Source: Neomicrococcus lactis
GTDB taxonomy: Bacteria > Actinomycetota > Actinomycetes > Actinomycetales > Micrococcaceae
Length of the DNA: 64,000 nucleotides
Assembly: GCF_014200305.1 (NCBI RefSeq)
Contig: NZ_JACHBL010000001.1
Coordinates: forward strand, 1,364,001-1,428,000
Direction of reading: 5' to 3'
Below are positions 6,525 to 26,672 of this stretch, piece after piece. How positions within the stretch are numbered: the stretch's first letter is position 1; each line of letters opens with the position of its first letter. Position numbers and translations under genes: made by a program. The notes under the pieces were generated by a model. The model ran no database searches and was not told where the DNA came from. It was given only the letters and a program-made list of their open reading frames with translations.

Positions 6525-6598
6525 ATCTAATAAAACATGGATTTCACTCTATGGCAAGAATTTTTCAAAAAAATCTTGACGTGGGGCCACTAGATAGG

Positions 6599-6615: not shown

Positions 6616-6666
6616 ACACATTTTATGCTGTGAAACTCTCTCTTGGAGCTTTGGATAGGACCCACC

Positions 6667-7680: not shown

Positions 7681-7689
7681 AGCCGACGT

Positions 7690-7725
7690 GGCGTCGTCGT
7701 ACTCAAATAGAAGGACGACGACGCC
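7690..7725. terminator. Hairpin between the solute-binding protein gene and hutH
   Basis: GGCGTCGTCGT (7690-7700) pairs perfectly with ACGACGACGCC (7715-7725) around a 14-nt loop. No T run follows, so it may slow or attenuate transcription rather than fully stop it before hutH. Confidence 0.5.
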
Positions 7726-7807
7726 GCTCACTTCCCACACCCCACCCCCTCTACGCTGCGCTTAAGAGCGCGCCACCGCGCGCTAGTAACGGCTAATCGA
7801 AAGAATC

Positions 7808-9337: not shown

Positions 9338-9359
9338 AACTTCCTCGTTTTGTTCGTTG

Positions 9360-9392
9360 AGAGGGGCGCCAGCTCAAGCCAGTGCCCCCTCT
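9360..9392 (+). terminator. hutH terminator
   Basis: AGAGGGG (9360-9366) pairs with CCCCTCT (9386-9392), followed by TTCGTTATT. It lies 22 nt past the hutH stop and marks the end of the hut region. Confidence 0.7.
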
Positions 9393-9402
9393 TTCGTTAT
9401 TC

Positions 9403-9888: not shown

Positions 9889-9929
9889 TCCGTCCAGCAG
9901 ATCCGTACTTTCGGATCACTCGGAGACTT

Positions 9930-10955
9930 CTAACGAACAAAGCGTGAAAACCTGAGCGAAGGCTTCTCTACCAGATGCCAGGAAGCACAAGCGGTAACGC
10001 TTGCCACCAGAAGAGCGATCACAATATGTCCGAAAATCCCCGCGGATGTGCCTAGCAGTAATACGACCAGCTGTTGAGACGGCCACCCATAAAGATAGAT
10101 TCCGTAGGAAATGTCATTACTGGCTCCCAAACGTATAGGCAAACTAGCTCCCAACCCCAGCACCAAATAGGTGAGCGGGATGTGTGCAAACCATCCGGCC
10201 TTATCCCAACCAGCAAGGTTCCAGAGTAAGACAATTGTGACCGCTGAGATCAGAATCAATGTCGAATTCACTCTCACCCAGTTTTTGCCGAAAAATGCGA
10301 CAGAGCCAACCGCAAAATACGCACCCAAGCGAATGAAATTCTCAATCGAATCCGGTGATGCCCCGCTTGCAGCGCGCATAGCAACGGTCAAACCGACCAA
10401 GACAGCTGTCAAGAAACCCATCGCCAGCAGACCGTTACGTCGCACCCACGCAATTGACAAGAAGGAACCGAGCAACAAATAGGCAACAAACTCATAGAAG
10501 AGGGTCCATGCTGTTCCGAGCCACACATGTGGAATTGGGAGACTCGTGAGCGTATTCGCAACTTCATCTTGCACCTGCCACAAGAGTGCATTTCTTATGG
10601 GAAAGCCGAGAGCTGATTTCACCACGAGATTGTCCGGCGTGAAGGCGGCGACCATCGGGGCAAGCACAAATGCGACGACCAATAACGCGACCCAGTATGC
10701 AGGGAAAATTCGCAAAATCCGGCGCCAAAGATACGACCACCAGTTTGAACGAAGTCGCGAACCGGTGATCAGGTAGCCGGAAGCTATAAAGAATCCATTA
10801 ACTGCCCAATTGCCTAATTCGGTCAGCAAATGTCCGGTCGGATCTGGGATTCCCATGATGGGTGTCGTGTGAGCAACGATTACTAATGAGGCGAGGACCA
10901 GGCGAACGAAGTTCAGCGCGTTGTTTCGATCCGCAAGAGCAGTGCCCAGGTTCAT
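9930..10955 (-). CDS. Acyltransferase-3 family membrane protein (surface glycan O-acylation)
   Basis: This integral membrane protein of about 341 residues has the acyltransferase-3 (OafA/YrhL-like) pattern: NALNFVRLVLASLVIVAHT at the start (catalytic-type His in helix 1), GFFIASGYLI, WRRILRIFPAYW, and about ten hydrophobic helices ending in a short basic tail. The ATG at 10955 is preferred (AGGATCGG just upstream) over a longer frame from 11006. It likely adds an acetyl or other acyl group to a surface sugar. A paralogue with the same motifs lies at 22826, so the two bracket the glycosyltransferase array. Confidence 0.85.
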   Translation of the reverse strand: MNLGTALADRNNALNFVRLVLASLVIVAHTTPIMGIPDPTGHLLTELGNWAVNGFFIASGYLITGSRLRSNWWSYLWRRILRIFPAYWVALLVVAFVLAPMVAAFTPDNLVVKSALGFPIRNALLWQVQDEVANTLTSLPIPHVWLGTAWTLFYEFVAYLLLGSFLSIAWVRRNGLLAMGFLTAVLVGLTVAMRAASGASPDSIENFIRLGAYFAVGSVAFFGKNWVRVNSTLILISAVTIVLLWNLAGWDKAGWFAHIPLTYLVLGLGASLPIRLGASNDISYGIYLYGWPSQQLVVLLLGTSAGIFGHIVIALLVASVTACASWHLVEKPSLRFSRFVR

Positions 10956-11163
10956 GGTCCGATCCTGGCGGCCTCGTGTCGTCTTGATGAAACGTGGAAG
11001 TGACAACTGTGTTCATACCGTTCAGTTGTTGGAGATAGTTACTTCATGCAACCCTGAATCCTGCGGTGAAATACACGCGACCACAAAATTCTCTTTGAGA
11101 GCAAATTTTGTCCTACGAGAATCCCACTCTGTGAATTTGGAGCTTGGAATCGAAGGTTCAGGG

Positions 11164-11925
11164 TCATCCTTCTTCAAGGCGAAACCTCTTAGATTTGGCC
11201 ATCCGATTCTTCAATTGCGCACGTTTCCGACGGATCGACGCCAAATACGATGAGGGTGCGTGCCACCATCGCGAACCATGGATTGGCCCCAAATTACGGT
11301 TTGTCTTCTCCAACTCATCTAGGCGCATAAGTTGAAACTCTGGAGAACTACTAGTCACGCTAATGTCGGTCTCAAATCGCGTTCCGCGAATTACGGCATT
11401 CGGCCGCTTCTGTGACAGGAATAAGTAGTCGTCTCCACCCCAGATTTTCATTTCATCGGGAATGGTCACATAGTTTTCGCGTCGCAAAGCCATGAACATC
11501 CCGAATCCGATGGCAACGTGCTCGTAGGTTGCCAGGCGGTGAGTTATTCTTCGTGGTCCGCCCTTGTTGATTATCGAACCGTCGATTCCGACCATCCCGA
11601 ACGTCCCCCTACGAAGAAGCTTTCGAGCGTATTCGAATATTTCGTCATCGAATCTGACATCGTCATTTATTATTGCCAGGTATTGCCCGCGAGCCTCACC
11701 GGCCCCGAGATTCCACGCAGGATTGACGTAGATGTTCTCGTCTTGCTGAATAACCCGTACCTTGGATGACTCACTGGTCAGTGGATCGGTTGAGTTATTT
11801 ATGATGAGCACTTCCAGAACCAAAGGATTCGCGGCGCATTGCTCAATTAGAGTGCGCAGGTCTGGGGAGCGTTGAAGTGTAGGGATAACAACCGAAAACA
11901 CGGGCAACGGCAAACTGGCGCTCAT
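11164..11925 (-). CDS. Small GT2 glycosyltransferase, paralogue 1 of 4
   Basis: This 253-residue GT-A protein begins PVFSVVIPTLQRSPDLRTL (nucleotide-binding strand), continues with VLEVLIINNSTDPL, the shared block ENIYVNPAWNLGAGEARGQ, the metal-site-like IINDDVRFD, and KIWGGDDYLFL near residue 165 (acceptor/catalytic region). No membrane helix is seen. It has the same plan as the genes at 12472, 18594 and 19537 and should transfer a sugar to a surface polymer; donor and acceptor cannot be read from the sequence. A TAGATT box 6 nt before the ATG suggests a leaderless mRNA. It lies in decayed DNA. Confidence 0.85.
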   Translation of the reverse strand: MSASLPLPVFSVVIPTLQRSPDLRTLIEQCAANPLVLEVLIINNSTDPLTSESSKVRVIQQDENIYVNPAWNLGAGEARGQYLAIINDDVRFDDEIFEYARKLLRRGTFGMVGIDGSIINKGGPRRITHRLATYEHVAIGFGMFMALRRENYVTIPDEMKIWGGDDYLFLSQKRPNAVIRGTRFETDISVTSSSPEFQLMRLDELEKTNRNLGPIHGSRWWHAPSSYLASIRRKRAQLKNRMAKSKRFRLEEG

Positions 11926-11931
11926 ATCTAG

Positions 11932-11937
11932 AATCTA
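11932..11937 (-). promoter_or_regulatory. -10 box of GT paralogue 1 (leaderless)
   Basis: TAGATT on the minus strand, 6 nt before the ATG at 11925. The same TANNNT-N6-start spacing recurs before many genes here. Confidence 0.5.
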
Positions 11938-12121
11938 GACGGAACATGGCACTTGCATCTTTAACTGTTACGCAGGCACTATGAAAATGTCGCCTCGAAT
12001 TTGGATCTTTCCAAAGCCGACTCAGAGTCAAACTTAATTAGTTGCCGAAGGCAGCCAAACGATGGCGTTTGGAAGACCCCTACGAAGTTAGTTACCAATA
12101 CTTTGGCTCTGATCTCGAATA

Positions 12122-12447
12122 TTACAGTTCAAGTTTTTTCGCACCGCTACCTAGGTGGCCGTAATTAGTCTTCAACATTCGCTGAGAACGCCAAAAGAGG
12201 TGAAGCCTCACCCATGAAGGGTCGCATCGCAAGAAAACGTAGCGACGTCTCTCAGCATTTGGTTTCGCAACGTCATTGCTGATCTCCCCTGCCAGCAAAC
12301 CAGCTTGGACCTGGTAGTGGGCATCCAGAACACCAAGCGTTTGGAGCTAACCAATAAGGCGACGCTACGTAACTGCTGAACTACTTCCACAATCCATGGA
12401 TAATCTCTAATGGGCTCGTCCGGCTGAAGCTCAATAACTGCCATCAC
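12122..12447 (-). pseudogene. Decayed coding remnant, family not recognised
   Basis: Two overlapping minus-strand frames each look protein-like over part of the stretch. One, starting near 12447, reads AVIELQPDEPIRDYPWIVEV; the other, open from 12346 to TAA at 12124-12122, reads RRRYVFLRCDPSWVRLHLFW and ends with GSGAKKLEL. A frameshift near 12350-12400 would join them. It sits between the divergent GT paralogues 1 and 2, so it may be the rest of a lost sugar-transferase gene. This is weak evidence. Confidence 0.3.
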
Positions 12448-12459
12448 TGAATCTTGGCT

Positions 12460-12465
12460 TAGTCT
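12460..12465 (+). promoter_or_regulatory. -10 box of GT paralogue 2 (leaderless)
   Basis: TAGTCT lies 6 nt before the ATG at 12472, and no purine-rich ribosome site is present. Confidence 0.5.
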
Positions 12466-12471
12466 TTATAA

Positions 12472-13191
12472 ATGAACGTAAGCGTGAAAAGCCCAGTGTT
12501 TTCGGTCATCATTCCAACCCTTCAAAGGTCGGCAGATCTGGATCCGCTTGTAACTCAATGCGCTTCACACCCCCTTGTCATCGAAGTCTTAGTAATTAAT
12601 AATGCTTCCGCACCACTTTCTTGGGACTCTCCCAAAGTCCGCGTGCTACAGCAAGCGGAGAACATTTACGTAAATCCGGCCTGGAACCTTGGAGTAGTTG
12701 AAGCAAAAGGCGAGCTTCTCGCGATATTAAACGACGATCTGTCATTTGATCTCAAAGTTTTCGAGTACTGTGCCGAAGTTCTGGAACGTGGCCGGTTTTC
12801 GATACTGGGTCCTTCGCCCAAGGCTATGAATATGTCTCCGAGGGGGAAGCTGAGGCATCGGTTGACAAGCCTTCATACGGAACCCTTTGGCACGGCAATG
12901 TTTATGAAACGGGAAAACTACGTCCCCATTCCTGAAGATATGAAAATCTGGGGCGGCGACGATTGGCTGATGCTGAATCAACGCAAGCCCGTAGCAGAGT
13001 TACTGGGAGCGGCGTTTCGAACTGAAATGTCCACGACATCCGGTTCTCCTGAATTTCAACGTATGAGAGCAGATGCGAATCGAGTATCCGAAAGGTACCT
13101 CCTACCTCTGCGGGGAAGCCAGCCGTGGCATTTTCCAGCGCGACTAATGACAAGATTGAGAGTATTGCGAGAGAAGAATTTCGGTCGGTAA
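12472..13191 (+). CDS. Small GT2 glycosyltransferase, paralogue 2 of 4
   Basis: The protein has 239 residues with the plan of paralogue 1: FSVIIPTLQRSADLDPL, VIEVLVINNASAPLSWDSPK, ENIYVNPAWNLGVVEAKGE, ILNDDLSFD, and MKIWGGDDWLMLNQ near residue 160. It has no membrane segment. It is divergent from paralogue 1, about 550 bp away, with a decayed remnant between them. It ends with a basic tail (RLRVLREKNFGR). The sugar specificity is unknown; the divergence among copies lies mainly after residue 95, which suggests different acceptors or donors. Confidence 0.85.
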   Translation: MNVSVKSPVFSVIIPTLQRSADLDPLVTQCASHPLVIEVLVINNASAPLSWDSPKVRVLQQAENIYVNPAWNLGVVEAKGELLAILNDDLSFDLKVFEYCAEVLERGRFSILGPSPKAMNMSPRGKLRHRLTSLHTEPFGTAMFMKRENYVPIPEDMKIWGGDDWLMLNQRKPVAELLGAAFRTEMSTTSGSPEFQRMRADANRVSERYLLPLRGSQPWHFPARLMTRLRVLREKNFGR

Positions 13192-13204
13192 GATAGATAG
13201 TCAT

Positions 13205-13636
13205 TTACCTTTGAAATACCTTGAGTCTTCCGGCGACTATGCCGTTCTCGATAAGAGGCGTCTTCATGCCAAGTACAACGTTTCGGTTCATAGGCACTCT
13301 TACTCTCATTCCATCGTTGCCAAGAAGCCCGGCGCGAAAGTCTCGTGCGGTTATTCGAAGAATGAATGATTTCGAATGAGAACGCCATAACGCCGGTTTA
13401 GCTCATTTGTACTACCCAAAGGCTCCTCCGTCGCGTCCTCGAGCGTGCAGCGGGTAATGATCAGCAAACGCAGGAATAATGAAGATTTCTTCGCGACGAA
13501 ATTCCGCCAAGCAACCCGCGTCATTTACGCCGTAGCATTCCGCGCTAAGGATGGAAGCGCAATCTTCGCGGACCCAGCCGCAATGGGTTACCGGTTTTCT
13601 ACATATGAAGACGTTGTACCGAATGATGGGATGCAT
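13205..13636 (-). pseudogene. Possible broken gene, two in-frame stops
   Basis: One minus-strand frame is open from 13636 to 13205 except for TAG at 13414-13412 and a TGA two codons later. Its last part, DFRAGLLGNDGMRVRVPMNR and NVVLGMKTPLIENGIVAG, looks like natural protein. I cannot name a family, and another frame is also partly open here, so this is only a suggestion of a dead gene next to GT paralogue 2. Confidence 0.25.
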
Positions 13637-13663
13637 ACAACTAAATCAAGCATTTCATTCTAG

Positions 13664-14018
13664 CCAAGAGCGTCTTGCTAGCTTTTCGTTCTCCTAAGCT
13701 CAGCCCCGGGCTCTCATCATCTCAATACTGAGCCTTGTTACCTCGCCGGAAATCAAGTCACAGTCGACTTGAAACTTCATTCCACGCACATTGAAAGGCG
13801 ACATACACATAGGCGATTCGAACAATGCACCTCACGTGATAGGCACTGGATGCCTCGGAATTCTGAGCGGATACGCCTGATCATTGGTCGCGGATCTGAC
13901 GTAAAGGTCGACGAAATGAAACCTTATTCGACACAGCGTCGACTTCTAACCTTCAGTGGAACCAGATGCTCTCGAAACCACACTTGGCGCTAACCAAATT
14001 CCCAATATTCCGCGTTAA
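13664..14018. other. Non-coding or fully decayed stretch
   Basis: No convincing open frame, repeat or regulatory signal is seen. Base composition resembles the neighbouring decayed segments. Confidence 0.4.
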
Positions 14019-14834
14019 CTAGTAAAAATCTCCACGAATAATCCGCCAGTTTCTACGTAGTTGATGTGCTCGACCATTATTCCAAGACCTGCCAAAGAAC
14101 CATGGGGCAATAACTTCGCGGCCAGGGTTTAGCTCATCTCCTATGTATCCGCCCCAGTACGAAAACGTCGAGTTTGATATCAGGAGGCGAGGCGCATTTA
14201 CGATCGCATTTAGGTCGTGGGCTACATCTCCATCTTCGTAATCGGCTGGCGCGTACGGCGAAAGAATTGGGCCAAGCTCCGCACGACACCAATCAAGACC
14301 GTCTGAAATGATCAAAAATCTATCGGGTGCTCCATTTGCTTCTACGGATGCTCGAAGTGCATGACGAACATATGAAACTTGATCCATGCCGAATTCTTTT
14401 TCATTGGCCGCTACGGAAAAGTAGTCGCCGCGTCGGACGTTAATGACCATTGAATTTGACTGTTGAAGTACCGGATCTTCGACGATCACGCTGTTCGGGA
14501 GAAGCATCTGGCGAATATATGGTCCATCAATTTCGGCAGAAGTGTAGGCGTCAGCGCTGGGCTTTTCGCCTGACCACGGCATGACCCGCTTGTCAGTAAA
14601 TTTGACTTGATTTCGGGTGACAGAGAGTTGGTCTCGGAGTTCTGGGAAAAGACTCAACGACTCCCTCTGCTTGTCATCGCTCAGAACACGACGCCCTTCC
14701 TCGGAACCCTGGAACGCCCACTCTCCCACATATAGAAGATTTCCAAGGCGCATCCATTCGGGGGTCCACGCTACTGGGCGACCATTTCTGACAATGCCAA
14801 GGGCCGTGGACTTCGCTTTTTGGACGAGACTCAT
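14019..14834 (-). CDS. GT11-like alpha-1,2-fucosyltransferase
   Basis: The protein has 271 residues. The GT11 hallmarks are visible: MVINVRRGDYFS near residue 130 (GDP-fucose-binding motif I), FLIISDGLDWCRAEL near residue 180 (motif II) and LLISNSTFSYWGGYIGDEL near residue 220 (motif III). The expected role is transfer of fucose from GDP-fucose to a galactose-type acceptor on a surface glycan. A second member lies at 54106. No GDP-fucose synthesis genes are in the window, so the donor must come from elsewhere or the donor differs. TAATTT 6 nt before the ATG indicates a leaderless mRNA. Confidence 0.82.
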   Translation of the reverse strand: MSLVQKAKSTALGIVRNGRPVAWTPEWMRLGNLLYVGEWAFQGSEEGRRVLSDDKQRESLSLFPELRDQLSVTRNQVKFTDKRVMPWSGEKPSADAYTSAEIDGPYIRQMLLPNSVIVEDPVLQQSNSMVINVRRGDYFSVAANEKEFGMDQVSYVRHALRASVEANGAPDRFLIISDGLDWCRAELGPILSPYAPADYEDGDVAHDLNAIVNAPRLLISNSTFSYWGGYIGDELNPGREVIAPWFFGRSWNNGRAHQLRRNWRIIRGDFY

Positions 14835-14840
14835 AGGTAC

Positions 14841-14846
14841 AAATTA
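14841..14846 (-). promoter_or_regulatory. -10 box of the GT11 gene (leaderless)
   Basis: TAATTT on the minus strand, 6 nt before the ATG at 14834. Confidence 0.45.
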
Positions 14847-14933
14847 TCGTCGATAACCCCACCCCACTCGATGTATTACGAAGGGACGTTCTAGACATTA
14901 GAGAAGAAACTAGCTCTCAGCTCCATTGCTATA

Positions 14934-15297
14934 GTGTCCGTGAGCTCATCTAATGAGCGCAAAGATTATTGGATAGTTCTGATTGCCGCAGCCGATCGAA
15001 TGAGTTTCAGGGAACTAAGGAGACTTTCAGGCACTAGTCGAGCGCACGTCCGAGGTCATCGATGCCTTGAAGAGATCCAGCCTCGTTATGGGGATAGGCG
15101 CATTTCCAACTCGCAAGTTCCTTGAATCAGCGAGTCCAACTAACCGAGAGAATTTCACACTGCTAAACGCAGAATCTGAGGACCCACTGCATTGTGCGAG
15201 CAAAGCAATTAAGGTTTTTCCGGAGGTACGTTGCACTTCTTTCATTGCGCCGTGGCGATGCGAGTTTGAGTTGTTCCAAGGGACTCGCATCAACTAG
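14934..15297 (+). pseudogene. Possible decayed gene with one frameshift
   Basis: A first frame reads NERKDYWIVLIAAADRMSFR. After a shift near 15050 a second frame reads ERTSEVIDALKRSSLVMGIG and SASPTNRENFTLLNAESEDP before TAG at 15295-15297. The two together look like one protein of about 120 residues, but I cannot assign a family. It may be a remnant of a sugar-modifying gene, given the surroundings. Confidence 0.25.
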
Positions 15298-15362
15298 GTA
15301 AATTGGCGTGCAAAAAGTTGCAGGTGGGATGCTAGCCAGTGATGAGAATAGCATGCTGAAAA

Positions 15363-16207
15363 TCAACGATATTCGTGCTCCGGGTCACTTTCCCAGTGCA
15401 GGTTCTCGTCAATAATCAGGCGCTGCTGAAACTTAAGGCAAAGCGGTTCAAATACGTTTCCCATGATTGAAAACCAAGAAATCGGATAGCCCTCGTTAGT
15501 GCCGAATGGATTCGTGGGTAACTACTGACCTAAAAGTGGTTCAAAATAGTTGAGCCTTCTCTCAACCTCTGAGAGCCACTCCCCTGTAAACGGGTTATTC
15601 GGTCTAAAGGCAAAACAACTGGCATACACGTGGCGGCTGAAGTTTGCGCGCTACTCCCGCGGGAGCTTCCCGCCTAAAGCTGATCCGACGTTGTGAGATC
15701 CCAGCTCTTTCATCCCTCCGCCATGATGGTAAGCGAAATAGGCACGCAAATAGTCGGAACGATGGATTATTGACAGGTTCTCATACGCGGAATGCAAGGG
15801 GTATGACGGGACAATCCAATCATCCAGATTGGCTGGGCTAACGAGTATTACCTCGGCGGTAGAACCCTTCTGCAAGCGCTCCAGAGATTTCAGCCTATTT
15901 TCTGACATTTCATTGGTTCCGGTCCGAAAAAAACAAAAACGCGACGGGGTGCCGGCTTTGGGAAATCCTCGATTGGTAAGGCTGAGTCATACATCAAGTG
16001 ATTGACCGGAAAAGTACTGGATGCGGGAATTTTAAGCGCCCCGTCGCCAAAGTGTGACGTGTGGCGGGCCAAATTGAACTTGTACTCAGTCCGACTGACA
16101 CGAAAGGTCCACCATTTGTCCTTGGTTGCATGAGCCGAGCGTTTGAGATTTCGCGCTCCCAAGTAAACCTCGTGTTTCGCCGTCCGTAGCAGCTGGAGAG
16201 GATTCAT
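15363..16207 (-). pseudogene. Broken capsular-type sugar transferase (one frameshift, two stops)
   Basis: Reading left from 16207, the frame is intact to RRVFVFF near 15930, where a T-rich run (GTTTTTGTTTTTTTCGG on the minus strand) shifts it. The continuing frame reads GTNEMSENRLKSLER, LSIIHRSDYLRAYFAYHHGG, then TAG (15653-15651), then FAFRPNNPFTGEWLSEVERR, then TAG (15524-15522), then TNPFGTNEGYPISW and a final TGA at 15365-15363. The HRSDYLRAYFAYHHGGG segment is the donor/metal region of capsular-polysaccharide and GT32-like sugar transferases. Total span (about 281 codons) is close to full length, so the gene died by point changes rather than deletion. Confidence 0.75.
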
Positions 16208-17013
16208 GTAGAGATTCTAGATGTGCCCTATGTAAGGAGTTCATTTTGGGGCAACTTGTGAGCAGCAGCAGAAGGTTGAGGCTCGACAAGTATGCGGATG
16301 CTGGGACGATCTTTGTAGAGAGAAAAGTGTTGAATTCACTTCAATGTGAATGAAGTAAATCACTCTATTGACTACCTTTGGTCCCATGGTACTTGGAATC
16401 ACCCATTGAGTCGCAAGCACTTACGCTATGCCAACCGAGGCCGTACTCTCAAGCGCCGAATTCGTTAAGGTCACAAAGTCTTCGCCACCTGTCTGCCAAA
16501 CGTTTGAACAGCACCAGCGTTCTGAGGGCTCACATTAAGCGTGGAGTCAAAAGCCAGTCCAGTGGTATTTTTCCGGCAACCCGTCTCGCCGTGTTCCTTA
16601 TCGGTACGAGAGCACATCTTCCGAGTTCACATTGCGTTAGTGGATCAATCGGAAGTGCGTGCTGTCAAAAGCCACCCCGGTTTGAATCTTCTTTTCAGCT
16701 ACATGACAACTGGGCCGTGTATCGCAAGGTTTATCAAAGCTGATTGATAGCGACAGTACAACTACCTGTCCAGGAGACCTTAGAACTCCACCCAGCCCTC
16801 GACTTGGTCATAGCACTTTCGGATTGAACTGAGGAGTGAGATCAGAGGAATTCTCCCTAGAACTTGCTCGCCGGCGCCTAAATGGCGTACCGCGAGCAAT
16901 GAGCCCGGACTGTTTTTCGCCTCATCGATACTGGCGACTAAGTGGCATAGCCCCTACAGCCAATCATATAAGAGCAAGACATCCACCCATGCTCTAACTT
17001 CTATTCAGCTTGA
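16208..17013. other. Long stretch without a recognisable gene
   Basis: About 800 bp between the broken sugar transferase and the secreted protein gene. A 121-codon plus-strand frame (16378-16743) exists, but its protein is rich in Ser, Arg and Pro with no motif, and I judge it chance. No insertion-sequence ends or clean inverted repeats were noticed. It is probably decayed DNA. Confidence 0.4.
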
Positions 17014-17750
17014 CTAGAAACAGATCGTGACATCTCCAATGCCCGCATACTGGAAGTTGCTGCTGGCTACCAGCCGAGTCGTAGACACGTTCGCATAAGT
17101 AATCGATGGCGTCGCCGAGGACGGTTTCAAGGTGATTGGAATGTAGTTACCGCTCGTCGTCGACGTATTAGTCTCCGTCGAAGATGTCGATGTCGTTGTC
17201 GTTGTCGTGACATAGGTTTTTGGCGTCCCGACTGCCGTTCCGTATCTATCCGTTGCGCCACTGAAAGACAGCTGGTCTGTGTAGTAGGCAGCGTTGTTCA
17301 TGTTGGCCTGCTGACTCGTGATGTCGTAAGCGTTGAAAGAGATTGGGACAGGCGTCAGGGCTTTGCCTGTGCTCGAGGCAAACGAGAAAGTCAAAGTTTC
17401 AGAGCCCCTCGTTGTTCCCTTGGCACTCGATGATGTTCCTTGATTGAAGTTGAGCACAGACGTTGTTGTACCTGACGGCACCACGTATTTGGTTGACTGA
17501 TCGCTGGTGACGCCATTGGCCCAGGCTTTCTGTGAGCCAGCCGAGGTCGCGCTGAAATCGCCATAGTTAGGCGTGGGCTGCTGGCCGGAATCGATTTTGC
17601 GACCCGGCTGCCCTCCGGTTCGGTATTTACGAACGGCGACTGTGACCTGCTCCCCGCTAGACAGCGTAATGGTGTCGACGCGCGTCGCATCTGTTCCTTG
17701 CGTTACAGCCAGAGTGGCTGACGTCCAAACCAGTTTTCCACAGCCTTCTC

Positions 17751-17757
17751 GGGGGGG
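17751..17757 (-). repeat. C7 tract after the signal peptide
   Basis: Seven C on the coding strand directly after the AMAA signal-peptide end. Six would keep the frame. Confidence 0.85.
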
Positions 17758-17838
17758 CAGCCATGGCAGGAGCAGCGGTAACAAGAGCGATCGTTGGAAC
17801 CGTCCAAGCGATATTTCGGGCAACGGCTCGGCGAGCAT

Positions 17839-17845
17839 GGGGGGG
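17839..17845 (-). repeat. C7 tract near the start codon
   Basis: Seven C on the coding strand, eight codons after the ATG. Six would join the start to the signal peptide. Confidence 0.85.
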
Positions 17846-17867
17846 TGTTCTTTTCAATATTAGTCAT

Positions 17868-18477
17868 GGAGAATTCATCTAGAACGGTGTGTGGAAATGG
17901 GACGACTGCTTAAAAGCGGATTCAAGCTAGACCAAAGATTACCCAAATCATAGATTTGATCACGACGACCGTTATCGGCGCGATATTTATACCGTCATTA
18001 TGCTCGTTGTGCCTCGCCTTACCGATCGATAAGTTAATATCGATCCATCCCAGAGAGGCAACAGCGGAATGGTCGTACGCAGGCCCCAATCAGGGTACAG
18101 TTCCAGACCGACGGCAGGCACAAGGTCTCGGCTTGCCCTCAGAAAGCAGGGATGTGATTCCACAGAGACGGTATTAGAGAAATGGGCACGTATATCCTGA
18201 ATTACGATGTCAACACGTAGGAAATAAGTGACAACTGCACTGATTCCAAACCAAAAGAGTCAGTGCAAAATAGTGGAACTAGGAGTTCTCGCAAGCAAAT
18301 CGGAAGTCGCTGATCGCGACGCCGTCAAAAGCCGGATTGCTGGTTGTGAGCGCTACCAACTTTCAAAGAAGTCGACAGCGGATACATTGCGAAACTCCTC
18401 AAGCAGGCGATGAGGACACCGATCAATTCGTCAAGCACCCCTCAATCACCCAAGACAAAATGAAATTTTGCATAGAT
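17868..18477. other. Intergenic stretch without a recognisable gene
   Basis: About 600 bp between the divergent secreted-protein gene and GT paralogue 3. Only short chance frames are seen. The last part runs into the duplicated block beginning at 18478. Confidence 0.4.
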
Positions 18478-18877
18478 GCGATCTTCGAGCTCAATCCATC
18501 TGGAGTCATTCGCCCGTCCACAACGAGATGGACAAACCTTCACGCGATGTAGCCTTTCGGAAGTCTGCGAGTTTTGATGTTTAGAATGGCGGCATGACCA
18601 TCCACGCGCCTCGGCCAGTTTTCTCGGTGATAGTCCCAACGCTTCAACGCGCGAAAGAGCTACAGCAACTAGTGCAGGATTGCGCTGATCATCCCTTAGT
18701 CCTCGAAGTTCTCGTTATCAATAACGCCAAGGACCCACTCTCGTGGAACTCGCCCAAAGTTCGCGTCCTCCAACAACAGGAAAATATCTACGTCAATCCA
18801 GCATGGAATCTAGGGGTTCGAGAATCTCGAGGAAAATATTTAGCCATCCTAAATGATGACGTATTGTTCAACCCCAA
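18478..18877 (+). repeat. Duplicated block A, copy 1
   Basis: 400 bp that match 19421-19820 with no gaps and, by my count, about 24 differences (about 94% identity). The block covers 116 bp upstream plus the first 95 codons of GT paralogue 3. Confidence 0.9.
18582..18587 (+). promoter_or_regulatory. -10 box of GT paralogue 3 (leaderless)
   Basis: TAGAAT lies 6 nt before the ATG at 18594. The corresponding box of paralogue 4 is TAGAAC at 19525-19530. Confidence 0.5.
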
Positions 18878-19319
18878 TCTTTTTGACTTAATCCTTAGAT
18901 GGTTAAGAGTTCCTGGAATTGGAATCATCGGCCCAAACAAAACGAGTTTCCACCCCTCCACTGGACGACCTTTTATTCGCCCCAAATATCAGCGACCATA
19001 CGGCTGGGGCACGGCAATGTTCATGCGCCGCGATGCATACACTGCGATTCCGGAGGAATTGCGCGTTTTTTACGGTGATGATTGGCTATTTCTCCATTCG
19101 CCGCGAAGAAACTGGACATTTTCCAATTTTTTCATTTCAACGAAAATGTCAACAACCGCTGGCGATTCAAAATTCAGCCCAGTCATCACTCATGATCAAG
19201 AAGTCTGGGAAAGTTTCGAAAAGGTTCCAAATCATCCTCGAAAGTTGGACCGCAAAGTATCCGAAATCTCACGAGCAATTCGACACAAAAGGGAACCCGG
19301 GAAATATAAAAGGCAATGA
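18594..19319 (+). CDS. Small GT2 glycosyltransferase, paralogue 3 of 4
   Basis: The protein has 241 residues. Its N-terminal half (PVFSVIVPTLQRAKELQQL, VLEVLVINNAKDPLSWNSPK, ENIYVNPAWNLGVRESRGK, ILNDDVLFN) is nearly identical to paralogue 4. Residues about 96-140 then diverge, residues about 141-166 (AMFMRRDAYTAIPEELRVFY then GDDWLF) are again almost identical, and the C-terminal tail diverges. This patchwork points to recombination between copies. The GT-A donor half is kept while the presumed acceptor-facing segments vary. The tail is strongly basic (KREPGKYKRQ), which could help it sit at the membrane. Confidence 0.87.
   Translation: MTIHAPRPVFSVIVPTLQRAKELQQLVQDCADHPLVLEVLVINNAKDPLSWNSPKVRVLQQQENIYVNPAWNLGVRESRGKYLAILNDDVLFNPNLFDLILRWLRVPGIGIIGPNKTSFHPSTGRPFIRPKYQRPYGWGTAMFMRRDAYTAIPEELRVFYGDDWLFLHSPRRNWTFSNFFISTKMSTTAGDSKFSPVITHDQEVWESFEKVPNHPRKLDRKVSEISRAIRHKREPGKYKRQ
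19014..19090 (+). repeat. Duplicated block B, copy 1
   Basis: 77 bp that match 19957-20033 with one or two differences, although the sequence on both sides differs. It encodes the AMFMRRDAYTAIPEELRVFY and GDDWL segment. Confidence 0.88.
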
Positions 19320-19420
19320 AATCTGTAGAAATACCGAATAATATTCGGCTCCCAGTCACATGAAGGAACCATGACGGTGTCGGGGGTAGCTTCGGAGCCA
19401 AATATTGACTCTATAAAGTT

Positions 19421-19820
19421 GCGATCTTCGACCTCAATCCATCTGGAGTCATTCGCCCGTCCACAACGAGATAGGCAAACCTTCACGCGATGTAGCCTGT
19501 CTGAAGTCTGCGATTTTTGAAGTTTAGAACGGCGACATGACCATCCGCGCGCCTCGGCCAGTTTTTTCGGTGATAGTCCCAACGCTTCTACGCGCGGAAG
19601 AGCTTCAGCAACTAGTGCAGGATTGCGAAGATCATCCCTTAGTTCTTGAAGTTCTCGTTATCAATAACGCCACGGACCCACTCTCTTGGAACTCACCCAA
19701 AGTTCGCGTCCTCCAACAACAGGAAAATATCTACGTCAATCCAGCATGGGATCTAGTGGTTCGAGAATCTCGAGGAAAATATTTAGCCATCCTGAATGAT
19801 GACGTATTGTTCAACCCCAA
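19421..19820 (+). repeat. Duplicated block A, copy 2
   Basis: Second copy of 18478-18877 at a constant offset of 943 bp. It covers the promoter region and the first 95 codons of GT paralogue 4. Confidence 0.9.
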
Positions 19821-20286
19821 AATTTTTACATTTATTGCGAAGTGGCTTGGTGTCCCAGGCATCGGAATAATTGGCCCTAATAATTCATGCCTGATCGCCC
19901 CAAATGGGCAGCCCATACTTCGGCCAACGAATGAACGGCCAACTGGTTGGGGTATAGCAATGTTCATGCGTCGCGATGCATACACTGCGATTCCGGAGGA
20001 ATTGCGCGTTTTTTACGGTGATGATTGGCTATTCCGCAATTCGCCCCGAACAAACTGGACACATGGAAATTATCCGATTCCAACTGAGATGTCCGTGACG
20101 TCGGGCGATCCAAAATTCAACCCAATAATTGCGGCCGACGACGAGGTATGGAGGAACCTTGAATTTAGCCCGAGTAAACAACCAAAAATCGCACGAATAG
20201 TCATCCAACTTTCACGCGCATTAAATGCGCATATTCGCACCCAAAAGCGCAGCGCCATATCCTTGCTAATCAAAGCACAAGACTAG
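19537..20286 (+). CDS. Small GT2 glycosyltransferase, paralogue 4 of 4
   Basis: The protein has 249 residues in tandem with paralogue 3, every matched position exactly 943 bp downstream. It shares the N-terminal donor half and the AMFMRRDAYTAIPEELRVFY block with paralogue 3, but has a different middle (FIAKWLGVPGIGIIGPNNSC region) and C-terminus. In the conserved block the usual PAWNLG reads PAWDLV here. The function is transfer of a sugar in surface-glycan assembly, with specificity unknown. The -10-like box (TAGAAC) is one base off TANNNT, so expression may be weaker than that of paralogue 3. Confidence 0.87.
   Translation: MTIRAPRPVFSVIVPTLLRAEELQQLVQDCEDHPLVLEVLVINNATDPLSWNSPKVRVLQQQENIYVNPAWDLVVRESRGKYLAILNDDVLFNPKIFTFIAKWLGVPGIGIIGPNNSCLIAPNGQPILRPTNERPTGWGIAMFMRRDAYTAIPEELRVFYGDDWLFRNSPRTNWTHGNYPIPTEMSVTSGDPKFNPIIAADDEVWRNLEFSPSKQPKIARIVIQLSRALNAHIRTQKRSAISLLIKAQD
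19957..20033 (+). repeat. Duplicated block B, copy 2
   Basis: Matches 19014-19090 at the same 943-bp offset, flanked by diverged sequence. Confidence 0.88.
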
Positions 20287-20402
20287 AATTTTTTCTCACA
20301 ACTACGTGTAGAAGCCTTAGTACGACTTAGTTCAAGCTTACGTTTTCGGCTCGAGGCAATGCGCGGGTTGCACGGTGTTTATCCGAGTGGTGGGATAGTC
20401 GA

Positions 20403-21446
20403 ATGAAAGCTCTTCTCAAAGCTCAGCCTCAACCCGGCTTCGAGCTGACCGACGTTCCGGAGCCAGAGACCCGCCCTCATGACGTCAAAATTCGAGTCCA
20501 CACGGCCGGCATTTGCGGCACTGACATTCACATCCTGAATTACGACGCCGCCGCGCAAGACATGATTAACACTCCGCTGATCCCGGGCCACGAGTTCTAC
20601 GGCGAAGTGGTGGAAGTCGGTAGTCTCGCAAGCACTGTCAAAGTGGGAGATCGAGTCTCCGGCGAGGGCCACGTGGTCTGCGGTATGTGCCGTAATTGCC
20701 GCGCGGGTCGCAAGCACATGTGCATCAACACTTCGTCCGTCGGCGTCCAGCGCAACGGCGCGTTCGCCGAGTATGTCGTTATCCCCGAATCAAACGTATG
20801 GGTTCACAAGGATGAGAACATCACGCCGGAACTCGGAGCCATTTTTGATCCACTCGGCAACGCCGTCCACACAGCCCTTTCATTTCCTCTCGTCGGCGAA
20901 GATGTCCTCATCACCGGGGCTGGTCCTATCGGCCTGATGGCAGTGGGCGTTGCCCGTCACGCGGGCGCACGGAAGATCGTCATTACCGATGTGTCCGAAG
21001 AGCGGCTGGCTTTAGCGCATGCAATGGGTGCTGACCTCACGCTGAACGTCGCCGAGCACCACATCAAAGAAGCCCAAGCACAGCTGAAAATGGTTGAAGG
21101 CTTCGACGTAGGACTTGAAATGTCCGGCCGTGGAACCGCGCTGCGCGAAATGATCGAGAACATGAACCACGGCGGCAACATCGCACTTCTGGGATTGTCG
21201 AGTGAGACAGCTGAATTCGACTGGACCAAGGTTGTCACTCATATGCTCACCCTCAAGGGCATATACGGCCGCGAGATGTTCGAGACCTGGTACGCGATGA
21301 GTGCCATGCTCCAGTCCAACGAGACACTTCGAAACAACATCGCAAGCACCGTGACTGACGTATTTCTTGCCGAATCGTGGGAAGAAGCTTTCGCTACCGC
21401 GAAGGCCGGACACGGCGGCAAAGTCATCATCGACTGGAGGTCCTAA
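20403..21446 (+). CDS. tdh: L-threonine 3-dehydrogenase
   Basis: Tdh oxidises L-threonine to 2-amino-3-ketobutyrate with NAD+. The 347-residue zinc alcohol dehydrogenase-like protein shows [10 protein letters not shown] (catalytic zinc Cys), [16 protein letters not shown], the structural-zinc cysteines in [15 protein letters not shown] near residue 100, and the NAD-binding [18 protein letters not shown] near residue 172. Its stop is 2 nt before the kbl start, so both are made from one mRNA and perform consecutive steps. It follows directly on the glycosyltransferase array but has the codon character of a core gene. Confidence 0.93.
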
Positions 21447-21448
21447 TC

Positions 21449-22657
21449 TTGAGCAAGCAATCAATTCTTGCCAGCGTCAGCGAAGAAATCGCTGGGATAC
21501 GCGAAGCAGGACTCTACAAGAACGAACGCCATATCGACACACCTCAGGATGCATCCATCGAGGCCGGTCCGCTCGGGGTAGCAGCAGCTCCTGTTCTAAA
21601 CTTCTGTGCCAACAATTATCTAGGTCTCGCGAACGATTCACGGCTCATCGAAGCGGCCCACGAGGGTCTCGAAAACCACGGCTTCGGCATGGCTTCAGTG
21701 CGCTTCATTTGCGGCACGCAGGACATTCATCTTGCGTTGGAGTCCGAGGTCTCTGAATTTCTCGGTACCGATGCCACCATTTTGTTTTCAAGTTGCTTCG
21801 ACGCCAATGGCGGCGTTTTTGAGACTCTTTTCGGCCCTGAAGATGCGATCTTCTCCGATGCCCTAAACCACGCGTCCATCATCGACGGCATTCGCCTATC
21901 CAAAGCCAACCGATTCCGCTATGCCAATCAGGACATGACGGATTTGCGAGTCCAGTTGGAGGCCGCGAAATCACTGAACGACGGCGCCGGACCACGTCGG
22001 TCCGTCATTGTGACGGATGGCGTGTTCTCGATGGACGGTTTCATCGCTCCGGTCCGGGAGATCTGCGATCTGGCTGATGAGTACGGAGCCCTAGTCATGG
22101 TCGACGATTCCCATGCGGTGGGATTCATGGGAGCAACCGGCGCCGGAGTTCCCGAACATCTGGGTGTGGGTGACCGAGTGGATATCTACACCGGCACGTT
22201 CGGCAAAGCTCTCGGTGGTGCTTCCGGTGGCTACGTTTCAGGCCACGCAGAGATCATTGAGCTGATGCGCCAGCGAGCACGTCCATATTTGTTCTCCAAC
22301 TCGTTGGCACCAGCAATCGTCCAGGCCACGCGTGAAGCACTGAAGTTGGTGACCGGTTCTGGCTCCCTACGCGAAAAACTTTTTGCCAACGCCACCCACT
22401 TCCGCACTTCCATGACGGAAGCCGGGTTTGAACTCTTGCCTGGCGAACACGCAATCGTGCCCGTCATGTTCGGCGACGCCCACGTTGCGTCGAAAATTGC
22501 CGATGCGATGCTGGAGCACGGAGTGTTTGTCACAGCCTTTAGCTACCCGGTAGTACCGAAGGGTGCCGCACGTATTCGTGTGCAACTCTCCGCAGCGCAC
22601 TCTACCGAAGACATCGAAATTTGCGTGAAGGCCTTTATCGCCGCACGAGGATCGTGA
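21449..22657 (+). CDS. kbl: Glycine C-acetyltransferase (2-amino-3-ketobutyrate CoA ligase)
   Basis: Kbl cleaves 2-amino-3-ketobutyrate with CoA to glycine and acetyl-CoA, completing threonine breakdown. I start it at TTG 21449, because GGAGG lies 8 nt upstream and the open frame further upstream is only overlap with tdh. The result is about 403 residues. PLP-enzyme motifs are [41 protein letters not shown] and the Schiff-base lysine segment [13 protein letters not shown] near residue 250. The length fits the family. It is coupled to tdh. Confidence 0.93.
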
Positions 22658-22825
22658 TGAAGCCTTGCGACTTTGAGATTCCAAGTCCACTCATAACTTG
22701 ACCTTCTTCATGGTTAGCCTTCGTACTCAAGACTTGGGTGAAATGACTCTGGAATAAATATCCTTTCATGCGAAGATCGTTCATAACGAAGGTCTACTAA
22801 GTTAAAAACCGAAGAGGGTAAATTC

Positions 22826-23917
22826 TTGCCTCAGCCAGCTAACCGACCAACACTTCATGCCAAACTGAGCTCCTCAGACAATGCCCTAGGCGCCGTTCGT
22901 CTAATGCTGGCGGTCCTGGTCATTTTCGGGCATGCCTTCCCTCTCGGCGGATTTCAGTCATTCCAGTTTGGCCCCTTCATTCACAGCGGCCTCCATGGTG
23001 CTGCAGTTGATGGATTCTTCGTGATCTCGGGGTATTTGATATTTGCGTCAGCTTTGAGGACTCGAACACTGGCATACTTCTGGCGCAGGTTCCTTCGCAT
23101 CTATCCTGGCTACTTAGTGGCCATACTCGTAACGGCATTCCTTTTCGCGCCTCTCGGCAGCGTTCTGGAAGCGGGCACTAAATGGGAAGCGGCTTCGGCA
23201 ATCCATTACGTTACTGGTGCACTTGATCTCAAGCCCTCGCAGGATGGCATTGAAAACACATTGAATCAAGTTCCGTGGCCACACACATGGAACGGAAGTC
23301 TCTGGACACTTTTTTACGAGGCGTTGGCATACGTCGGCGTTGCAGTCCTATGTGTGGCAAATCCAGTTCGAACGAGAGTGCACATAATTGTGCCAGCATT
23401 GACCCTGATGGCAACTCTCGCTTATGTCACGCTTCCACCGACGTTCTTCTCCAGCACCTTCTCTAGTGCGTTTGGCGCAATTGCGGACAACGGTCTCCGT
23501 CTTTGGACTCACTTTCTATGGGGAATGTTGGCCTACGTGGCTGGGAAACATATTAGATTCAACCGAATTTCCTTTTTCGGATCAACTGTATTGTTTCTGT
23601 TTTTGACTCACACGTCCGTACTTCCTGAGACCTCTGGAAAGATTGTCGGGCTGATCTCGCTAGTTGTCGCCGTTCTTAGCGCAGGATCAGTTCTCAAGAC
23701 TCGCATTGGGTCCAACACAGATCTGTCGTACGGCATCTACATTTACGCTTTTCCGGTACAACAGCTTCTAATATTGTGCGGAATTGCCAATTTTGGCTGG
23801 CTGGTCACAGCCCTTAGTTGCGTTAGCATAACGGCGGTATTGGCGCTGCTTTCGTGGAAATTCGTGGAACTTCCTGCCATTAACCTCAAGCATCTGGTTC
23901 CTGCGCGGCATTGGTGA
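22826..23917 (+). CDS. Acyltransferase-3 family membrane protein, second paralogue
   Basis: The protein has 363 residues from a TTG start with GAGGG about 8 nt upstream. It opens with NALGAVRLMLAVLVIFGHAF (catalytic-type His in helix 1), then GFFVISGYLI, FWRRFLRIYPGYLVAILV, and about ten membrane helices. It matches the protein at 9930 motif for motif, so the two probably acylate related surface sugars with different specificity. It is convergent with the GT2 gene at 24051. The gap before it (22658-22825) holds no gene. Confidence 0.85.
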   Translation: MPQPANRPTLHAKLSSSDNALGAVRLMLAVLVIFGHAFPLGGFQSFQFGPFIHSGLHGAAVDGFFVISGYLIFASALRTRTLAYFWRRFLRIYPGYLVAILVTAFLFAPLGSVLEAGTKWEAASAIHYVTGALDLKPSQDGIENTLNQVPWPHTWNGSLWTLFYEALAYVGVAVLCVANPVRTRVHIIVPALTLMATLAYVTLPPTFFSSTFSSAFGAIADNGLRLWTHFLWGMLAYVAGKHIRFNRISFFGSTVLFLFLTHTSVLPETSGKIVGLISLVVAVLSAGSVLKTRIGSNTDLSYGIYIYAFPVQQLLILCGIANFGWLVTALSCVSITAVLALLSWKFVELPAINLKHLVPARHW

Positions 23918-24050
23918 CATCGTAGCGCCGTCCAACATATCTCTATATTTGAGGCTAATATCGCAATTTCCTGGCTCCAGTCTAGGAGGGTCAATCTCCA
24001 AGGAGCTCTCGGTGTGACACGCGGTAATTGACGGCCCAAGTAGCGAATGC

Positions 24051-24938
24051 TCATTTATTAGGGGCAATGAGAAATTGTGGTTCGTCCCAGCCTTTGTACT
24101 TACCAGATATGACGCCCACCAAGTGGCCTGCAGCAGTCACGCCCGAGCGCGCGTGCCCCTTAAGTGAATTCGACCGGAACCCAGTTACAGCATGAGTCGC
24201 CGATTTGAAGTTCTCGAGAATAACGGAACGAAGCTTATTTCTTCCGGGAAATTCGTCTGGATGTCTCGCCCAAACTCGTACTTCAGCTTTTCCAGAATTG
24301 TATATTTTCCTGAGAACGTTCTTGAAATCAGTCGTAGGCGTGAACTCAATTCTGGCGCTCGGGACGTAGGCAATGCGAAGTCGGGCTTTTCGAGCACGGA
24401 TCATGAATTCATAATCCTCACAGCCATAAGTGCGGAACGACTCATCATAGCCGCCGAGTTCCAGGAATCTGTGCCTTCTGATGGCCGAATTTCCACCCAA
24501 GTGAACCGGGGCACGGAAATTCTCAGATTCCTCGTAAATAGCAGTTACGTCAAGATCACTTACGCGATCTTCGTACTCCTCCAGGAATCCGCCCACGACA
24601 TCAACATCACTGCTTAACGCCCAAACAAGAGTGTCGAGCCAATCTGGCTCCACTCGGTCATCAGCGTCACAGAACGCGACAAATTTCCCTCGTGCTACAA
24701 GGACTCCGGAATTACGTGCGTGTGCGGCACCCTGAGTCTTGGACGCGTCAACGAGTGACAATGGCACTGGGAAGCGGCTCTTGAAACTCTCAATGACTCG
24801 AACAGTCTCATCTTTCGAACCGTTGTTCGCGACTATTACTTCCCAAGAACCGTCGAATGTCTGACAGGCTAAAGAGTCCAGCTGTCTTCCAATCGTTGAA
24901 GCAGCGTTATATGCAGGAATAACTACAGACACGTCCAT
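24051..24938 (-). CDS. GT2 glycosyltransferase (CDADD type), paralogue of the genes at 51609 and 53066
   Basis: The ATG at 24938 is chosen because GAGAGGAAA lies upstream and the GT-A fold begins right there (MDVSVVIPAYNAASTIGRQL); the open frame extends to 25124 without homology. The protein has about 295 residues. Motifs are VIVANNGSKDETVRV, AAHARNSGVLVARGKF, the metal-binding VAFCDADDRVEPDW near residue 95, and GCEDYEFMIRARKA near residue 185. No membrane helices are seen. It belongs to a second local GT2 family whose other members lie at 51609 and 53066. Sugar specificity is unknown. Confidence 0.87.
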   Translation of the reverse strand: MDVSVVIPAYNAASTIGRQLDSLACQTFDGSWEVIVANNGSKDETVRVIESFKSRFPVPLSLVDASKTQGAAHARNSGVLVARGKFVAFCDADDRVEPDWLDTLVWALSSDVDVVGGFLEEYEDRVSDLDVTAIYEESENFRAPVHLGGNSAIRRHRFLELGGYDESFRTYGCEDYEFMIRARKARLRIAYVPSARIEFTPTTDFKNVLRKIYNSGKAEVRVWARHPDEFPGRNKLRSVILENFKSATHAVTGFRSNSLKGHARSGVTAAGHLVGVISGKYKGWDEPQFLIAPNK

Positions 24939-25109
24939 GTTTGCGCCGTTTCCTCTCTCTGAGTCAGTGACTAAGACCAAAAGCCAGAAACGACTACTAA
25001 CTCCGCCAGAACAATTGCCTTTTAACCGATCGTAGGCGGGGCAGATATCATTGCCAACTTGTGACCTACGAATAAGGAGATGGAAACCTGCATCCTCGCC
25101 CATAGACGC

Positions 25110-25146
25110 CGGAGTGGTCGCCAATCTTTATCCGGCCACCACTCCG
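25110..25146 (-). terminator. Hairpin after gatB
   Basis: CGGAGTGGT (25110-25118) pairs with ACCACTCCG (25138-25146), 15 nt past the gatB stop. No T run follows on the minus strand. Confidence 0.5.
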
Positions 25147-25160
25147 CTGTCTGTACGAAT

Positions 25161-26672
25161 CTAACCGTCAACACCCAGCTTCTCGAGCACAATCTCGCGG
25201 ACACGAGCCGCGTCAGCCTGCCCACGGGTCGCCTTCATGACGGGGCCAATGAGTGCGCCGATGGCCTGCACCTTGCCGGACTGGATCTTTGCCACAACAT
25301 CTGGCATCTGAGCCATGGCTTCGTCGATAGCCGCGCCGAGGGCAGAGTCATCGTTCACCACGGCAAGACTGCGCTTTTCAACAACCTCAGATGGGGTTCC
25401 TTCGCCGGCGAGGACAAAGTCCAAGACCTGGCGGGCGATCTTGTCATTGATCTTCTTGCAATCGATAAGTCCCTGAAGTTCAACAATGGTTTCCGGCGTG
25501 ACACCAAGTTCAGCAGCGTCAACGTCCTGGGTCTTCGCAAGACCAGAGACAACACCCATCCACCATTTACGAGCAACCGCTGGTGAAGCGCCTGCTGCGA
25601 TGGTGTCAGAGATGAGGTCCGTCATTCCAGCATTTACGACGTCACGGAATTCTGCGTCCGAGTATCCCCACTCAGCCTTGAGGCGCTTGCGGCGCTCGGC
25701 TGGCGGCTCTGGCAGACGGGCACGAAGCTCTTCAATCCACTCTGGCGTCGTGACAACAGGAACCAAGTCCGGCTCTGGGAAGTAACGGTAATCGTCGGCG
25801 TCGGACTTCGGACGGCCAGATGTGGTGGAGCGAGTGTCTTCGTGCCAGTGCCGGGTCTCTTGGACAACCTTCTGACCTGATTCGAGAACAGCAGCGTGAC
25901 GCTCAATCTCGAAGCGAACAGCATGCTCAACTGCGCGCAGCGAGTTCACGTTCTTCGTCTCGGAACGAGTGCCGAACTTGTCAGCGCCCTTGAGCATAAG
26001 GGAAACGTTGGCATCGCAACGCACGTTGCCGCGCTCCATCTTGGCGTCAGAGACGTCAAGGTTCTTCACGATTTCGCGGATCGCTCCAACGTAGGCACGC
26101 GCCAGTTCAGGGGCACGCTTGCCAGCGCCAACAATAGGCTTCGTCACGATTTCCACGAGCGGAACACCAGCACGGTTGTAGTCAACCAAGGAGAACTCGG
26201 CGCCCTGAATACGTCCGGTGCTACCACCCATGTGGGTGAGCTTTCCGGCATCTTCTTCCATGTGAGCGCGTTCAATTTCAACGCGGAACACTTCGCCGTC
26301 TTCCAGCTCAATGTCGATGTAGCCGTCGTAGGCGATCGGCTCGTCGTACTGAGAGGTCTGGAAGTTCTTAGGGGTGTCCGGGTAGAAGTAGTTCTTGCGG
26401 GCGAAACGGCAGGATTCTGCAATCTTGCAGTTCAGCGCCAAGCCAATGAGGATCGAATACTCCACGGCCGTCTTGTTAACTACCGGCAAGACACCAGGCA
26501 AGCCAAGGTCAACCGGCGTGACGTTCGTGTTCGGCACGTCACCAAAGGCGTTCGGAGCATCAGAGAACATCTTGGTCTTGGTGTTGAGTTCAACGTGAAC
26601 TTCAAAGCCAAGGACTGGATCGTACTTTTCTAGCGCCTCGTCAAAGTCCACGAGTTCTTCAGTCACTGCCAC
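25161..26672 (-). CDS. gatB: Asp-tRNA(Asn)/Glu-tRNA(Gln) amidotransferase subunit B
   Basis: GatB is the tRNA-binding and kinase subunit of GatCAB, which converts Glu-tRNA(Gln) (and Asp-tRNA(Asn)) to the amidated form. The 503-residue protein has the family start [16 protein letters not shown], the catalytic segment [37 protein letters not shown] and [14 protein letters not shown], and a C-terminal YqeY-like helical domain ending [11 protein letters not shown]. The GTG start abuts the gatA stop with no gap; a second GTG lies two codons later. It is the last gene of the PP2C-ligA-gatCAB run. Confidence 0.95.

Follow-up and report, generated by a model that had tools for sequence, protein, structure and literature searches.

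Alternating near-identical and diverged blocks in a tandem glycosyltransferase pair of Neomicrococcus lactis: probable partial homogenisation by recombination

The 2.70-Mb genome of Neomicrococcus lactis contains four members of a small glycosyltransferase family (E 0.001), GT1 to GT4, all of them inside the 64,000-nucleotide stretch analysed here (the window; Table 1). GT3 and GT4 are direct neighbours, and stretches of near-identity alternate with strongly diverged ones along the pair. What process leaves islands of identity between diverged parts of the same two genes? A previous sequence-only reading had proposed recombination or gene conversion that keeps the catalytic blocks and exchanges acceptor-facing segments, with a predicted effect on surface sugar linkages, instead of plain duplication followed by drift.

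Both proteins score above the PF00535 gathering cut-off of 23.3 bits (GT3 46.5 bits, GT4 30.7 bits). NCBIfam gave no match at cut-off for GT1-GT4, and the sole PHROGs hit was a weak one of GT3 to a galactosyl-transferase (E 1.5e-4). The AlphaFold models of GT3 and GT4 (pLDDT 88.2 and 87.5) have the same order of strands and helices, and comparison of the GT3 model with the PDB yielded GT-A matches, including ppGalNAc-T2, WrtF and SpsA, with Z 15.3-17.7 in the 50 matches listed. Across 14 aligned rows, N87, D88, D89, G161 and D162 are invariant and D163 is nearly so. By analogy, N87-D88-D89 is predicted to be a DxD-like metal motif and G161-D162-D163 to contain an xED-like catalytic acid.

Likelihood segmentation of the GT3/GT4 alignment at constant offset reproduced the layout proposed earlier, namely an offset of 943 bp, a block A of 400 bp at about 94% identity, about 135 diverged bp, a block B of 77 bp at about 99% and a diverged tail (measured values in Table 1). 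The 77 bp (19014-19090) hold one mismatch, include an exactly identical 62-bp core (19029-19090), and form part of a longer segment of block B. The left edge of identity is abrupt, at about 18477, and block A comprises 117 bp 5' of the ATG and about 94.7 codons of GT3 (the 95th in part), i.e., the donor half, ending just past the NDD/DxD motif. The upstream region and the roughly 95 codons ascribed to block A were thus recovered; the promoter ascribed to it was not, as a scan for sigma-70 sites in 18300-20450 gave none. The block upstream of GT3 and GT4 occurs in only two copies in the genome (search to E 1).

Table 1. Coordinates of the genes, alignment blocks and related features (window positions unless another locus is named).
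Feature	Location	Coordinates	Strand	Description
GT1	window	11164..11925	-	dispersed inverted paralogue
GT2	window	12472..13191	+	dispersed paralogue without homogenisation; A-block pS 0.83-0.89 to the other three
GT3	window	18594..19319	+	241-aa GT-A-fold family-2-like glycosyltransferase; ORF, PF00535 E 5e-12
Block A, copy 1	window	18477..18877	+	401 bp, 94.0% identical to 19420-19820
GT3 diverged middle	window	18878..19013	+	136 bp, 56.6% identity; codons 95-140; position of the HV2 region
Block B, copy 1	window	19014..19118	+	105 bp, 94.3% identity; strand 141-145 to helix 161-167, GDD/xED-like motif
GT3 diverged tail	window	19119..19319	+	C-terminal helices; segment 19119-19330 at 49% identity
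GT4	window	19537..20286	+	249-aa paralogue; ORF, PF00535 E 3.6e-7
Block A, copy 2	window	19420..19820	+	5' of GT4 and GT4 start; offset 943
GT4 diverged middle	window	19821..19956	+	from segmentation
Block B, copy 2	window	19957..20061	+	from segmentation
GT4 diverged tail	window	20062..20286	+	from segmentation
Hairpin with T-run, GT3	window	19043..19063		within coding block B; not above chance
Hairpin with T-run, GT4	window	19986..20006		within coding block B; not above chance
Split gene	L012, Brevibacterium senegalense	5974-7935		split by ~1.2-kb insertion, inverted repeats near its ends
Split gene	L052, G630 (gene also in L048)	3356-5472		split by ~1.4-kb insertion
G067 second copy	L044	15323-16025		apparent frameshift
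G223 gene	L035			gene with stops

Synonymous divergence, compared block by block as Nei-Gojobori proportions, alternates along the pair and is far from uniform. The pS values are 0.11-0.12 in block A (pN 0.04), 0.84 in the middle (pN 0.27-0.28), 0.12-0.13 in block B (pN 0.02-0.03), and 0.53 and 0.74 in the two parts of the tail. Restricting the comparison to same-residue codons that have synonyms gives identical/different counts of 77/7 in A, 4/17 in the middle, 21/2 in B and 14/13 in the tail, and the excess of synonymous identity expected of block B is therefore present (21 of 23 such codons identical, as against 4 of 21 in the middle). Fisher tests separate the middle from B (1.6e-6) and from A (9e-11) and the tail from B (0.004), and find A and B alike (1.0). 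The tail is somewhat less diverged than the middle at these codons (p 0.034), in part owing to 19094-19118, which is still within the island. When silent identity was permuted over the conserved degenerate codons, p was ~1e-4 both for the main breakpoint at codons 97/100 (10,000 shuffles) and, in the C-half, for a 19-codon silent run (20,000 shuffles). The alternation is not due to chance. Since silent divergence is non-uniform and block B carries excess silent identity, a role of recombination or gene conversion in shaping the two genes is well supported at the sequence level.

These silent sites also bear on explanations that invoke no exchange of DNA. Plain duplication with purifying selection on catalytic amino acids would fit the better conservation of A and B among the homologues listed, but silent sites are identical too, through 62 bp without interruption, and the amino acids of block B vary between paralogues: GT2 shares 54% and 50% of its residues there with GT3 and GT4, compared with 68% and 65% in A and 24% in the middle. 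This explanation is very unlikely. Middle and tail thus appear as the variable parts among the paralogues too. Preservation of block B by an RNA or DNA element acting at the nucleotide level is similarly improbable; a terminator-like hairpin is found in both copies of the block, but terminator-like sites number 4 against 2.5 +/- 1.7 expected, the folding z is -0.49, no Rfam family reaches its gathering score in 9000-26000, and such an element would leave both block A and a second gene pair, described below for Kocuria, unexplained. Least credible is targeted hypermutation of middle and tail after a recent duplication. It would account for the concentration of changes there, but silent change in the middle greatly exceeds replacement change per site, and the substitution types are mixed (15 C/T, 13 A/T, 12 A/C, 12 A/G, 5 C/G, 1 G/T). 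Selection alone, the element in block B and hypermutation were accordingly rejected on silent-site, folding/Rfam and substitution evidence.

Four genomes carry at least two copies of the family and provide nine within-genome pairs (six in N. lactis and one each in G001, G067 and G184, the last being Kocuria rhizophila TA68). Only two of the nine, GT3/GT4 and the TA68 pair, are direct head-to-tail neighbours, and both have a homogenised N-half that ends just after the DxD motif. The longest exact run measures 62 nt in GT3/GT4 and 131 nt in the Kocuria pair; it is 8-17 nt in the other seven, whose A-blocks are 62-66% identical in nucleotides and have pS values of 0.59-0.89 (one gene among them, G067b, is seemingly frameshifted). 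Together with the silent alternation and the 62-bp run, these controls uphold the earlier preference for recombination or gene conversion over drift after duplication or selection on amino acids. No further tandem pair was found among 36 loci beyond that of Kocuria (L007/L043). Second pieces were present in the G067 region (L037/L044), L012 and L048, and they do not amount to additional tandem pairs because L012 and L048 are single genes split by insertions and the extra piece in G067 is the second copy continued after the apparent frameshift.

The TA68 genes, G184a and G184b, abut: as called, the start codon of a comes after the stop codon of b. They are 99.3% identical from the start codon to nt 272 and 56.9% identical thereafter, with pS of 0.046 in A and 0.485 in the middle; no identity was found upstream of the start codon, and block B is not homogenised. 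In aligned codons, the breakpoint falls at 95 in N. lactis and at GT3 codon 94 in Kocuria. Judged from these sequences, the pattern is thus seen again, at the same position, in a second genus. The coincidence may just mark where similarity ends, in a sample with two homogenised pairs. A polarised comparison is offered by G173, from the same genus, which has one match in a region whose neighbouring sequence is shared with the TA68 locus. Block A has 53 informative sites, 50 of which link a to b and set G173 apart; in the middle, by contrast, 52 of 71 link a to G173 and set b apart, as do 13 of 18 in B and 53 of 86 in the tail; the final part of the tail holds a run of sites shared by a and b where G173 itself is divergent. 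Within the tract, a and b are therefore closer to each other at nucleotide sites than to the G173 orthologue. The divergence of a from G173 is even (pS 0.44 in A, 0.50 in the middle and 0.53 in the tail, with 0.19 in the short block B), so that copy a looks native throughout and b would have received, or been built on, the N-half of a. For GT3 and GT4, no close orthologue was found in the sampled genomes.

How do the blocks relate to the parts of a GT-A enzyme? In the GT3 model, strands 10-16, 36-43, 56-60 and 82-86 lie in block A, whose end comes directly after N87-D88-D89. To the middle belong helix 96-104 and strand 109-114 with the residues that follow up to 140; block B contains strand 141-145 and helix 161-167 with G161-D162-D163, and the tail contains strand 172-177 and the C-terminal helices. 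As described in passages of one GT-A survey, HV2 lies between beta 6 and beta 7, a C-terminal tail is named, and hypervariable regions are tied to acceptor choice (PMC7185993); passages of a second source present the GT-A design as donor, acceptor and catalytic templates (PMC7948508). Fold and literature mapping support equating the shared blocks with the donor/DxD core and with the catalytic segment from G-loop to xED, and by the same mapping the diverged segments would correspond to the hypervariable, acceptor-facing parts. Of the proposal that catalytic blocks are kept and acceptor-facing segments exchanged, the first half agrees with this mapping; the exchange is not supported in that form, given the middle values (pS 0.84, pN 0.28) and the sister relation of GT3 and GT4 there.

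That sister relation comes from trees in which GT3 and GT4 are the closest sampled relatives of each other in middle plus tail with block B omitted (100/96). The block-identity alignment excluded L013, L014, L015, L016 and L035 (distant or broken), and L017-L022 were in no alignment; trees and consensus counts additionally excluded Brevibacterium L012, G067b, G630 and G521 (broken, partial or set aside) and a duplicate Kocuria row, which left 22 rows. In the C-half, G184a groups with G173 (99/97 without block B) and GT1 with G001a (99/99 with block B, 89/36 without). The N-half protein tree does not reject G184a+G173 (p-AU 0.72), and G184a+G184b in the C-half gives p-AU 0.064 with block B and 0.16 without it, so that a topology change in Kocuria is not decisively seen in protein trees.

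Recombination could have shaped GT3/GT4 in either of two ways. In one, which corresponds to the exchange proposed earlier, the entire gene was recently duplicated in tandem and one copy later took in a new middle and tail from a diverged allele. A single duplication would give A and B the same silent divergence, as observed (7 of 84 and 2 of 23 codons differ), and the source of middle and tail could be unsampled, since no sampled sequence is closely related to them. Against such a replacement, the flanks give no support to a copied unit: the sequences left of both repeats, and likewise those downstream of the two genes, are unrelated to each other (downstream local score 8, shuffle mean 7.5, with 226 of 500 shuffles as good). 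The mutual relation of the GT3 and GT4 middle and tail also speaks against it, as does the evenly evolving Kocuria gene, which points to the N-half as the copied part. An imported cassette is therefore regarded as unlikely, though it deserves more weight than the explanations rejected above.

In the second, which we consider probable, homologous recombination copied block A and block B between old head-to-tail paralogues, and the diverged middle and tail escaped. The middle is silent-saturated and yet conserved as protein, and it looks like old paralogous sequence that was never homogenised. Given the age and constraint of middle and tail, and the sister relation of GT3 and GT4 in both, these segments were on present evidence not recent arrivals, and homogenisation of donor and catalytic parts is favoured over recent swapping of acceptor cassettes. 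GT3 and GT4 would then be old neighbours encoding a small GT-A glycosyltransferase, in which recombination between direct repeats transferred the donor half and the sequence 5' of it from one gene to the other; block B would have been copied in that event or in another of about the same time. The presumed route is RecA-type gene conversion, i.e., one-way copying. The tracts would stop where divergence between the genes prevents pairing, leaving the old divergence of the acceptor-facing middle and tail, which by analogy may set acceptor choice. Both enzymes are, or were, probably used in surface-glycan assembly.

Recombination needs similarity, and A and B are the best conserved parts, so a tract stops where similarity collapses; this alone could explain the shared stopping place without selection for module exchange. 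A point against the preferred reading is that it calls for two distinct tracts of similar age in the window, unless a single patchy event produced both. In addition, the 62-66% identity of the A-blocks in other pairs is low for efficient pairing, and conversion must therefore have begun early or been repeated. More doubtful is the extension that, in this actinobacterial family, the donor module up to DxD is a unit repeatedly copied between tandem neighbours, that a small library of acceptor modules stands behind a shared donor module, and that direct-repeat recombination can yield new enzymes or reduce the pair to a single gene.

The state of GT4 complicates the picture. Of eight amino-acid differences between GT3 and GT4 in block A, three (Q18L, N72D and G74V) fall at sites invariant in 20 of 20 other rows, and GT4 is the altered copy in all three, which suggests that it may be decaying. 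At block A positions conserved to at least 90%, GT4 departs at 5 of 33 and GT3 at 2 of 33; 16 of the 22 rows depart at 0-2 positions, G517 at 3, G204 and G194 at 4, G172 at 5 and G482 at 8. GT4 departs at none of the eight such positions in the C-half, its reading frame is open and its fold prediction is good. GT4 may thus be losing or altering its donor site, or decaying, and possible decay makes it less certain that both enzymes work.

Gene conversion between duplicates is a well-known general process, and the lgtB, lgtE and lgtH genes of Neisseria are mosaic. Among the published processes compared, the one that appears most similar is gene conversion driving the concerted evolution of PKS/NRPS domains, in which duplicated biosynthetic modules are likewise homogenised internally and parts divergent in function or sequence escape (PMC4256081). 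In GT3/GT4, by contrast with that account, half of a small single-domain GT-A enzyme serves as the unit, and its boundary falls within the catalytic domain, directly after DxD. At the Neisseria pgl loci, homologous recombination alters glycosylation genes, and the likeness is that a surface glycan is changed or possibly changed; that work draws on many isolates and known glycan forms, whereas the present gene-conversion comparison covers one genome per species and genes alone (PMC11130364). The block borders of GT3/GT4 coincide with the donor, acceptor and catalytic templates and HV1-HV3 of GT-A enzymes, although the passages on them describe long-term divergence, unlike the recombination proposed here (PMC7185993, PMC7948508). 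In those passages, the terms 'recombination' and 'gene conversion' are absent from PMC7185993 and 'gene conversion' from PMC7948508. Among the literature matches listed, no bacterial glycosyltransferase pair with such a partial pattern stood out, which is not proof of its absence from print.

GT3/GT4 is a new, clear example of partial homogenisation between tandem paralogues, and it provides a natural case in which the donor and acceptor modules of one GT-A glycosyltransferase would differ in age within one genome. The second case in Kocuria, with its breakpoint at most one codon away, would make the proposed GT-A modularity testable with natural chimeras.

GT1-GT4 lie in a low-GC stretch (~47-53%) flanked on one side by hutH, in whose surroundings GC is 58-63%, and on the other by tdh-kbl (54-57%); GC drops again at 22.5-25 kb and is back at 57-63% from gatB on. 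The low-GC glycan island corresponds to 9900-20300 of the window, between hutH and tdh-kbl-gatB. In G001 (L041), one family member and a further glycosyltransferase lie between these same flanking genes, so that the interval looks like a conserved place for such genes, which suggests an insertion site for variable glycan genes. Within the island, 15000-18500 is a long stretch of short or broken-looking ORFs, one with a weak Caps_synth match (E 0.067, below cut-off); these may be decayed surface-glycan genes. A Ser/Thr-rich ORF of 274 aa at 17014-17838 (minus strand) has no match in Pfam (E 0.1) or PHROGs (E 0.01).

The distribution of the family is sparse. In overlapping samples searched at differing cut-offs, it was found in 2 of 2 genomes of the genus, N. 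lactis included (E 1e-15), in 9 of 395 of the taxonomic family (1e-25), in 6 of 396 of the order (1e-40) and in 1 of 396 of the phylum sample (1e-40), this being the N. lactis genome itself, as well as in 2 of 27 Kocuria genomes and in 4/35, 3/38, 1/11 and 2/186 of four further groups. Plasmid relatives were found neither by DNA (E 1e-5) nor by protein (E 1e-10). From the split, frameshifted and stop-containing genes in Table 1, decay looks frequent in this family.
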